DNA of 64,000 nucleotides from Spartobacteria bacterium (GTDB lineage Bacteria > Verrucomicrobiota > Verrucomicrobiia > Chthoniobacterales > UBA10450). The notes below the pieces were generated by a model that saw only the letters and a list, made by a program, of their open reading frames with translations, ran no database searches and was not told the DNA's origin. How positions within the stretch are numbered: the first letter of the stretch is position 1; the number at the start of each line of letters is the position of its first letter. The stretch is from NCBI GenBank assembly GCA_003134765.1, contig PLCM01000041.1, positions 186,001 to 250,000 of the forward strand. Direction: 5' to 3'. Of the stretch, positions 58,018 through 60,954 are shown one piece after another. The position numbers and the translations under genes are program-made.

Positions 58018-60954
58018 ATGCCCACTGCTGAAACGGAATCTCCGGTAAAAACCGCTGAATCCACGCCCACCTCGCGTCCGCCGCGCGAGAAAGATCGAGT
58101 CGATTCTTTCGCCCGCCGCCACATCGGCCCGAACCAGCAAGCCCGCGCGGCGATGCTCAATGAACTCGGCTTCGAGAGTCTCGATAAACTTATCGACGCA
58201 ACCGTTCCGCAGAACATCCGCCTCGACCGCGCCCTAAATTTGCCCGAAGCCAAATCCGAAGGGGAAGCGCTGGCTGAGCTCCGCCAGGTCGCCCAGAAAA
58301 ACAGGGTCGCCCGATCCTTTATCGGTGCCGGCTATCACGACACAATCACGCCACCCGTGATTCAACGAAACATTTTGGAGAATCCCGGATGGTACACCGC
58401 CTACACTCCTTACCAGGCCGAGATCGCACAGGGCCGGCTCGAAGCGCTCCTGAATTTTCAGACGATGATCACCGACCTCACGGCGCTCGACATCGCCAAT
58501 GCATCCCTGCTTGATGAAGGCACCGCGGCCGCCGAGGCCATGACGCTCTGCCGCGCCGCGGTCGGGGGCGGACACGCAACATTTTTTGTCGCGGATAATT
58601 GTCATCCGCAAACGATCGAGATCGTGCAAACTCGGGCGCGACCACTCGGGATCAAAGTCGTCGTGGGAGATTTTTCGGCATTCAAATTCGACGAGACGGT
58701 CTTCGGCGCACTCGTCCAGTATCCGGCGACGGACGGTGCCATTTTCGATTATGAATCTTTCGCGCAAGCGGCCCACGAGGTCGGCGCGCTGCTGGTCGTC
58801 GCGGCTGATATTCTCGCGCTAACGCTGCTGAAACCGCCGGGCGAATTCGGCGCGGATGTCGCCGTCGGCAGCACCCAGCGGTTCGGTGTTCCGCTCGGAT
58901 TCGGCGGACCGCACGCCGCCTATTTCGCAACACGGGACGCCCATAAACGTCACATGGCAGGCCGACTCGTCGGCGTTTCGCATGATGCAACTGGCCGGCC
59001 CGGCTATCGCCTGGCGATGCAAACCCGCGAGCAACACATCCGGCGCGACAAGGCGACGAGTAACATCTGCACCGCCCAGGTCCTCCTCGCGGTCATTGCA
59101 TCGATGTATGCCGTATATCACGGCCCCCGCGGCCTGCGCGCCATCGCGGAACAGGTGCACCGCATGGCTCTTCTTCTTGCTGCCGGTCTCGACAAACTTG
59201 GCCATCCGTTAGTCCATCAGAATTTTTTCGACACGGTTTGTGTTCATGCTTATGGCGATGCATTCGCCGTATGTGACGCTGCGGCTAAGCGCGGAATCAA
59301 CCTTCGCGCGATTGATGAGTGCTTCTTGAGTATCGCAGTCGACGAAACAACGACCGCACAAGACATCCGCGCAATTCTGGATTCCGTGATCGACGCCTAT
59401 CCCGATTTGCGTGGACGAGACGTCGATCTTGATCAGCTAGCTCTCGAAAATCGAAAATCGAAAATCGAAAATCGAAAATCCCCCTTCCTCACTCACCCTG
59501 TTTTCAATACGCACCACACCGAGACCGAAATGTTGCGTTATCTGCGGAAACTCGAGTCGCGGGATCTTTCGCTGACCACCTCGATGATCCCGCTCGGCTC
59601 GTGCACGATGAAACTCAATGCCACGGCGGAGATGTTTCCGATCTCCTGGCCGGAGTTCGCGAAGCTGCATCCGTTCGCGCCGGACGATCAAACGGCTGGT
59701 TATCGTGAGATGTGCGATCAACTCGCGGGCTGGCTCGCCGAGATAACCGGCTTCGCGGGCGTCGCGCTGCAACCGAACGCCGGCTCCCAGGGTGAATACG
59801 CCGGGCTCCTCGCCATCCGCGAATACCACGCCTCCCGCGGCCAGGCCGCCCGAAACATCTGTCTCATTCCGACCTCGGCCCACGGCACGAACCCGGCGAG
59901 CGCGGTCATGGCCGGATTCAAAGTCGTTGCCGTCGCCTGCCTCAAAGATGGCGACATCGATCTCGCAGATCTCCGCGCAAAGGCCGACGCCCACAAAGAC
60001 GATCTCGCCGCGTTGATGGTCACCTACCCTTCCACGCATGGCGTTTTTGAAATAACGATTCGCGAGATTTGCGACATTGTTCATTCGTACGGCGGCCAGG
60101 TTTACATGGACGGCGCCAACATGAACGCCCAGGTCGGCCTCTGCCGCCCCGGCGACATGGGCGCCGACGTTTGCCATCTCAACCTGCACAAGACGTTCTG
60201 CATTCCCCACGGCGGTGGAGGCCCCGGCGTGGGCCCAATCGGCGTCGCGAAACATCTTGTTCCATTCCTTCCGGCTCTTTCCACAATCGAAAATCGAAAA
60301 TCGAAAATCGAAAATGGCATCGGCCCCGTCACCGCCGCTCCCTACGGCAGCGCCAGCATCCTTACTATTTCGTGGATGTATATCCGGATGATGGGTGGAG
60401 AAGGCCTTACCGAAGCGACAACGATCGCGATCCTGAGTGCGAACTATATCGCGAAGCGGCTCGATCGTTATTTTCCCGTGCTCTTCAAAGGAAAACGCGG
60501 TCTCGTCGCGCACGAATGTATCGTCGATTTACGCCAGTGGAAGAGCGGAGGCGTCGAAGTCGAAGACGTTGCGAAACGTCTGATGGATTACGGTTTTCAT
60601 GCACCGACAGTTTCGTTCCCGGTCGCCGGGACGCTCATGATCGAGCCGACCGAAAGCGAATCGAAAGACGAGCTGGACCGGTTTTGCGACGCCATGATTT
60701 CGATTCACGCGGAAATCGAGGCGGTCGTTTCCGGAAAGGCCGATCGCCAGAACAATGTCCTGAAAAACGCGCCGCACACGGCCCAGCAGGTCATCTCGGA
60801 CAAATGGGACCGGCCGTATCCCCGCGAACAGGCCGCCTATCCAGCCCCTTGGACGCGGGAGGACAAATTTTGGCCGGCGGTGGCCCGGATCGACAGCGTT
60901 TACGGCGATCGAAATTTGTTCTGCACCTGCCCGCCAATGGAAGACACGGAATAG
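58018..60954 (+). CDS. gcvP: Glycine dehydrogenase (P protein), single-chain, with in-frame heptamer arrays
   Basis: The P protein decarboxylates glycine on PLP and passes aminomethyl to the lipoyl H protein in the glycine cleavage system. The 978-residue product starts MPTAETES and then has the family start [11 protein letters not shown]; the N-half is the first GDC-P domain ([22 protein letters not shown]) and the C-half the catalytic second domain with PLP lysine K725 in [17 protein letters not shown]. Two stretches of the heptamer TCGAAAA are translated: 59444-59478, giving [12 protein letters not shown] at about 476-488 in the domain linker, and 60287-60314, giving [10 protein letters not shown] near 757-766 in a loop before [13 protein letters not shown]. 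Both keep frame. The upstream TTG start at 57985 is not needed. gcvH and gcvT are not in the window. Confidence 0.94.
59444..59478. repeat. In-frame TCGAAAA heptamer array in gcvP (5 units)
   Basis: Five perfect tandem TCGAAAA units lie in the linker between the two GDC-P domains. The reading frame of gcvP passes through without a stop. Confidence 0.9.
60287..60314. repeat. In-frame TCGAAAA heptamer array in gcvP (4 units)
   Basis: Four perfect tandem units of the same heptamer lie about 30 residues after the PLP lysine, in a loop before the [12 protein letters not shown] block. Confidence 0.9.

Follow-up and report, generated by a model that had tools for sequence, protein, structure and literature searches.

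The gene for glycine dehydrogenase (decarboxylating), gcvP, in the 64-kb stretch of DNA analyzed here (the window) harbors two perfect tandem arrays of the heptamer TCGAAAA, both translated in frame, which are probably members of a genome-wide population of ≈30-bp heptamer arrays that are gained in permissive loops and filtered by reading frame. Both arrays lie within one open frame on the forward strand (57985–60954); translation probably begins at its ATG at 58018, since a stop codon is found just upstream of Met12 in three congeners. The product aligns to its best solved match, 4lgl_A, over residues 16 to 986 with 1371 bits, and is thus similar to GcvP over its full length. Array 1 (59444–59480, forward strand; 5.3 copies) encodes residues ≈487 to 499 in what we take, from the alignment to solved GcvP and a known motif, to be the linker between the two halves of the enzyme (site 1). 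Array 2 (60285–60315, forward strand; 4.4 copies, listed as AATCGAA) encodes residues ≈767 to 777 and starts 31 residues past Lys736, presumably the PLP lysine on the same two grounds, in the loop that follows (site 2). These data confirm an earlier note on this DNA, made from the sequence alone, as to the presence, perfection, and frame of the two arrays.

Chance is excluded as an explanation of the gcvP arrays, since the window contains seven matches to TCGAAAATCGAAAA, whereas 100 shuffled sequences contain 0.02 on average. Tandem segments scoring at least 12 in the window occur at lag 7 (four segments) and lag 14 (three segments), and none was found at any other lag from 4 to 15. A pure TCGAAAA array translates to KSKIENR in all three frames of this strand and to FDFRFSI on the other; thus, only the frame downstream of the array matters, and this property may explain both the tolerance of such arrays and the prevalence of the sense orientation. 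An assembly artefact is unlikely, judging from separately assembled congeners, whose arrays at these positions consist of different units. An AlphaFold model of GcvP built from 10 sequences had a mean pLDDT of 50.3 and was set aside.

In the genus (eight genomes, with the window genome denoted G000), a heptamer array is present at site 2 in all eight genomes and at site 1 in seven (all but G003). The repeat units differ among species and include TCGAAAA, TCCGAAA, TCCGCAA, and TCCAAAA, so that alignment of gcvP across relatives reveals different units at the same two sites and not an identical conserved segment, the outcome that the earlier note had named as fatal to its reading. Site 2 is built of AATC-cored heptamers that share a single codon register, from which four genomes depart slightly, and that have a variable triplet of GAA, CGA, CAA, or CGC depending on the species. 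Despite these differences in unit, the site 2 loop is 90 nt long in seven of eight congeners and 93 nt in the remaining one. In the gcvP tree, G005 is sister to G000, yet it harbors other units at both sites. Separately, the linker region of the G000 protein looks to have been replaced or remodeled; over alignment columns ≈1125 to 1500 (residues ≈375–500), G000 and G005 are 44 to 64% identical, against 77 to 91% over most of the remaining columns. The loci of G007 (L010) and G006 (L015) have T-bearing third and fourth site 2 units in common but differ by C/G in all four units. Recombination is not supported as the source of the site 2 array common to G005 and G002, since exact shared runs of 29 to 56 nt are common between congeners.

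We extended this analysis to the family, which is made up of soil Verrucomicrobiota and belongs to the order Chthoniobacterales, judging from close named matches among Chthoniobacterales and "Spartobacteria" metagenome-assembled genomes. Of its genomes, 83 were searched and 80 gave a match; 71 gcvP loci were read. The length of the site 2 loop is a multiple of three in all 64 loci in which it could be measured, as is that of the linker in all 37 measurable cases (one genome per species). The seven unmeasured site 2 loci were inspected individually; in five the frame stays open throughout, and from two no loop was obtained. One apparent exception, a site 2 length not divisible by three in L093, proved to be a false anchor and is 90 nt in the other measurement. 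The earlier proposal of repeat growth at tolerant places under selection for frame is supported by these relatives, whose arrays of different units are in frame wherever measured. For a test of periodicity, a second set of anchors was used with which 57 of the 71 site 2 loops were measured: a score of at least 9 is reached at lag 7 in 20 loops and at lag 4 in one, and at none of lags 5, 6, and 8 to 12 in any of the 57. Across the family these loops are unrelated in sequence and range from 54 to 171 nt, some of them being nonrepetitive or serine rich. Many genomes of g14 (L074, L080–L083, L100–L107, and others) share an unrelated nonrepeat insert, REFILDPETGRILFGEGERGKRPP, at site 2, and the site 2 loop of L098 (G040) contains a long serine run. 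Two genomes, G049 (L095 and L120) and G066 (L102 and L119), each have two gcvP loci, one with a long site 2 insert and one without, and contamination of these metagenome-assembled genomes is possible.

Outside the family, site 2 arrays are found sporadically. Among relatives from the same class, which mostly have short and unrelated site 2 loops, 22 of 27 loops were measured and a single one harbors a lag-7 array (L167 from G130). Among 80 named genomes, 72 loops were measured, of which 12 show lag 7 and one shows lag 9; six of these 12 are family sequences already counted, five are Opitutae-type records, and one is from the Phycisphaerales. In G192 and G181, which belong to other families and are rich in heptamers, the GcvP linker contains a lag-7 array that is in frame. 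The abundance of arrays genome-wide is not supported as a predictor of a site 2 array outside the family, as just one of 19 heptamer-rich genomes with gcvP harbors one (G130, which was chosen with knowledge of its array). In addition, the linker of L159 (G115) reads GQASRLPLIDHGRDARAT, which may be another translated repeat.

Within the window genome (4.05 Mb in 41 contigs), the genome scan called for by the earlier note finds at least three exact TCGAAAA units at the two gcvP sites and in one other gene, der, where the array is in frame and occupies the linker between the two GTPase domains (gene name assigned by eye). Linker length in Der is a multiple of three in 17 of 17 measured cases (of 30 loci), and that of a loop in TrmD in 26 of 26 (of 30 loci); six genomes have a TrmD loop of 45 nt that is free of arrays, and other genomes have longer versions that contain several different heptamers. 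When the unit is relaxed to AATC-cored heptamers, 23 triples are present in this genome versus none in the reversed control. Further in-frame arrays of G000 are found in thrS, a glycosyltransferase, and a low-complexity protein, with others at gene ends or in intergenic regions; the gene names pyrC, purL, thiC, glnS, thrS, and kinase used in this work were likewise assigned by eye from translations. A survey of 40 loci in G001 and G002 by codon score classified 54 arrays, of which seven are in the interior of coding sequences (six with AATC on the coding strand) and 47 are not. Heptamer arrays are therefore mostly outside coding regions, with the gcvP arrays an exception. The distribution of AATC arrays over the phylum is patchy, with at least one in 69 of 115 genomes; within genus g19, G084, G184, and G217 contain 164, 41, and 248 such arrays, respectively, and the other sampled genomes zero or one.

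Comparisons among units provide some insight into how arrays change. Of 120 pairs of neighboring variable triplets, 40 are identical, versus 14.8 after shuffling, and the units within an array thus change together. Coding arrays are the more uniform, with identical neighboring triplets in 18 of 24 cases versus 22 of 96 in the remaining arrays. Agreement of units within a genome is weak, being found in 8 of 27 pairs in the genus versus 3.7 (p 0.02, mostly due to G000) and in none of nine pairs outside it; avoidance of stop-bearing units in coding arrays is also weak (5 of 37 versus 46 of 152; p 0.04). Coding arrays find their best match in a different genome just as often as in the same one, and no donor of the gcvP arrays emerges from this comparison. 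The near-constant length of site 2 combined with a changed unit argues against slippage of one unit at a time and for replacement or templated rewriting.

These features are accommodated by a model in which a DNA process that moves in 7-bp steps and is blind to codons would add or rewrite arrays, after which selection would purge those outcomes that break the downstream frame and favor the orientation that encodes the hydrophilic KSKIENR over FDFRFSI. The loops of GcvP, Der, and TrmD would then serve as permissive linkers rather than as switches. A further and weaker step of this model is that single in-gene arrays derive from the same system as a second type of array, found beside genes encoding S23p, the 23S rRNA intervening-sequence protein. 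One such S23p element is present in the window itself. An open reading frame for this four-helix bundle protein (7047–7394, forward strand) is matched by PF05635 (E 7e−21; 74.9 bits versus a cutoff of 33.8) and by a solved relative, 2rld_A (E 1.4e−22; 2rld is listed with five chains). It is flanked on the left by an array of GGATGAA type (7020–7049, forward strand; lag-7 score of 14) and on the right by its inverted partner of TCATCCC type (7402–7435, forward strand; lag-7 score of 21). The inverted match between these flanks scores 31 versus a maximum of 15 in shuffled sequences, and a 436-nt stretch containing the element is predicted to fold with a long terminal stem (z −4.67). The element (7020–7435) is outside a 23S rRNA gene, just upstream of a protein open reading frame with an ATG at 7444, and we therefore refer to it as an S23p element and not as a 23S rRNA intervening sequence. 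The downstream frame starts MPVIETRGLTK and is ABC-ATPase-like by eye.

Inverted arrangement is the rule among closely spaced arrays. The sampled loci contain 11 neighboring array pairs less than 500 bp apart, 10 of which are inverted in the same sense; seven of these ten are spaced by 51 to 70 bp, one by 188 bp, and two by about 390 bp. All five of the wide inverted pairs examined (≈380–510 bp), which come from three families of the phylum, enclose an S23p gene, recognized by PF05635 in the window, L260, and L277 and by a local profile in L385 and L386. All five were found via their arrays. Of eight regions fetched for their array pairs, two contain wide pairs and S23p and the other six lack S23p, and the 188-bp inverted pair of L256 has no S23p inside.

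We therefore turn to 24 plasmid S23p loci from Cyanobacteria, Bacteroidota, Chloroflexota, Spirochaetota, and Bacillota, for which protein similarity, and not the presence of arrays, was the sole criterion of choice. They represent 24 of 27 places in 25 records, with two Planktothrix records and a second Euhalothece place left out, and are not independent, several of the Nostoc loci being close kin. A flanking lag-7 array is present in 22 of the 24 (not in L393 or L402), and none of the 24 has a flanking array at any other lag from 4 to 12. In 22 of the 24 loci (L401 and L415 excepted), the flanks match each other in inverted orientation better than in any of 100 shuffles. In these same loci, 40 lag-7 segments fall in the 7.7 kb beside S23p versus nine in 24.7 kb elsewhere, coding DNA included. 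Both flanks pass in 18 loci, and in 10 of these the commonest unit is the same on both sides, inverted. The array segments are 30 to 35 nt long in 19 of 43 cases, with 33 nt alone accounting for nine. Of two more distant S23p-like frames near der (L194 and L200), one has a weak flanking lag-7 segment with a score of 9 and the other has none, with flanks that are cut by the end of the locus. A search of a phage collection for S23p gave no match. In L402 (Nostoc sp. UHCC 0870), the inverted repeat that flanks the S23p gene is nearly perfect, ≈50 bp long, and not built of heptamers. Several plasmid S23p genes (L401, L403, L413, and L396) are situated between defense-system genes, namely cas2/cas1 (on the other strand), hsdS/hsdR, and drmD/mmeI.

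On the basis of these data, we propose that S23p elements terminate in heptamer arrays. We entertain, with considerable doubt, the broader proposal that the arrays are both product and signature of such elements, which would be a widespread class of small elements with ends made of inverted arrays of a freely changing 7-bp unit, with the arrays in gcvP, der, and trmD representing landed single arms. Hairpins made of arms only (spacings of ≈50–70 bp) and single arms would then be nonautonomous products, and the array length of 30 to 35 nt, about five heptads, would fit one heptad per subunit of a homopentamer, the assembly reported for S23p (PMC4990558). The gcvP arrays themselves are not whole S23p elements, since both are in the same orientation with gcvP sequence between them and have neither an inverted partner nor S23p. 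The tentative step from S23p to gcvP is drawn from the shared unit length, the similar array size, the AATC core seen in the genus, and the co-occurrence of both types of array within genomes.

The strongest competitor to gain from a genome-wide population is that the arrays grew in place by 7-nt slippage from local A-rich codons, were selected for frame, and have no relation to S23p elements. Units do differ between loci of one genome, AAAATC-like words are present in native codons beside the TrmD and linker arrays, and polymerase slippage has been put forward to account for 7-nt repeats (PMC4679880). Against this, a joint change of all units at constant length is hard to achieve by single-unit steps that each break the frame, the AATC core is common to intergenic arrays, and no period but 7 is seen, even though one of 3, 6, 9, or 12 would put coding DNA at less risk. 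We consider growth in place possible but unlikely. The slippage switch raised by the earlier note, in which changes in copy number would turn glycine cleavage on and off (phase variation), draws on perfect short tandem repeats inside a gene with a unit that is not a multiple of three, and 7-bp repeats are reported to be phase variable in the hmw genes of Haemophilus (PMC8262952). This proposal is not supported by the comparison among species and is very improbable: none of the 64 site 2 loops and 37 linkers measured (one genome per species) is out of frame, one housekeeping gene would contain two independent arrays, and the length of site 2 in the genus is all but fixed while the unit differs. 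More improbable still is spread by Y1 (RAYT-type) transposases in the manner of REP sequences. Intergenic arrays are often inverted pairs and Y1_Tnp is found in all five genomes of the genus searched (5–12 matches each), but a requirement for this transposase is rejected by its absence from the heptamer-rich G084, G184, and G217 (0 matches), and it is present in five other genomes of their genus that lack any array. Finally, a conserved functional GcvP peptide that happens to have repetitive coding has next to no probability: the site 2 peptide xIxNxxSxIxN recurs in the genus, but the site 2 loop of the family holds many unrelated sequences of widely differing length and that of class relatives is mostly short and unrelated.

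The proposed gain of heptamer arrays in permissive loops with filtering by frame can be placed in the context of heptanucleotide repeats known in other bacteria. Tandem heptanucleotide repeats include TAACTGA in Beggiatoaceae (PMC4679880), where 25 putative proteins contain or overlap a heptamer set, and GGGNATC in Xanthomonas and Nostoc (PMC4692102, which also cites Calothrix repeats). Those repeats are likewise tandem 7-bp units at many places, mostly intergenic with some in open reading frames, but they have a fixed unit and lie mainly beside genes or at protein ends, whereas the arrays described here have changing units at fixed inner loops of conserved enzymes in many species. In the P6b stem of the Nostoc trnL intron, heptamers of class I (TDNGATT) and class II (NNTGAGT) are found (PMC4476775); these resemble our arrays as AATC/GATT-cored heptamers at one fixed site whose repeat classes have been replaced repeatedly and independently, and differ from them in forming an RNA stem, where we find single-orientation arrays in protein-coding DNA. 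In Coxiella, a 23S rRNA element combines an S23p open reading frame with three upstream tandem heptamers and 28-bp terminal inverted repeats (PMC4990558). The window element (7020–7435) has the same layout as this intervening sequence; unlike it, the elements of the window and of the plasmids are located in between protein-coding genes, and the gcvP arrays have neither open reading frame nor partner. Searches of the open-license literature yielded no paper on heptamer arrays as general ends of S23p elements and none on heptamer arrays translated at fixed loops of conserved enzymes. Rickettsia palindromic elements are repeats that, like the gcvP arrays, are kept in frame inside protein genes; they are longer and related in sequence, and are not 7-bp arrays of changing unit.

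Bacterial heptanucleotide repeats have been on record for decades, and no mechanism has been agreed upon. Two features described here make this question testable. The first is that the repeat unit changes while length and frame are retained within a conserved enzyme, a pattern that single-unit slippage explains poorly; the second is that S23p genes on plasmids from five phyla are almost constantly associated with arrays. Were the link to S23p causal, one protein family would stand behind a widespread kind of bacterial repeat and, with it, new protein linkers.
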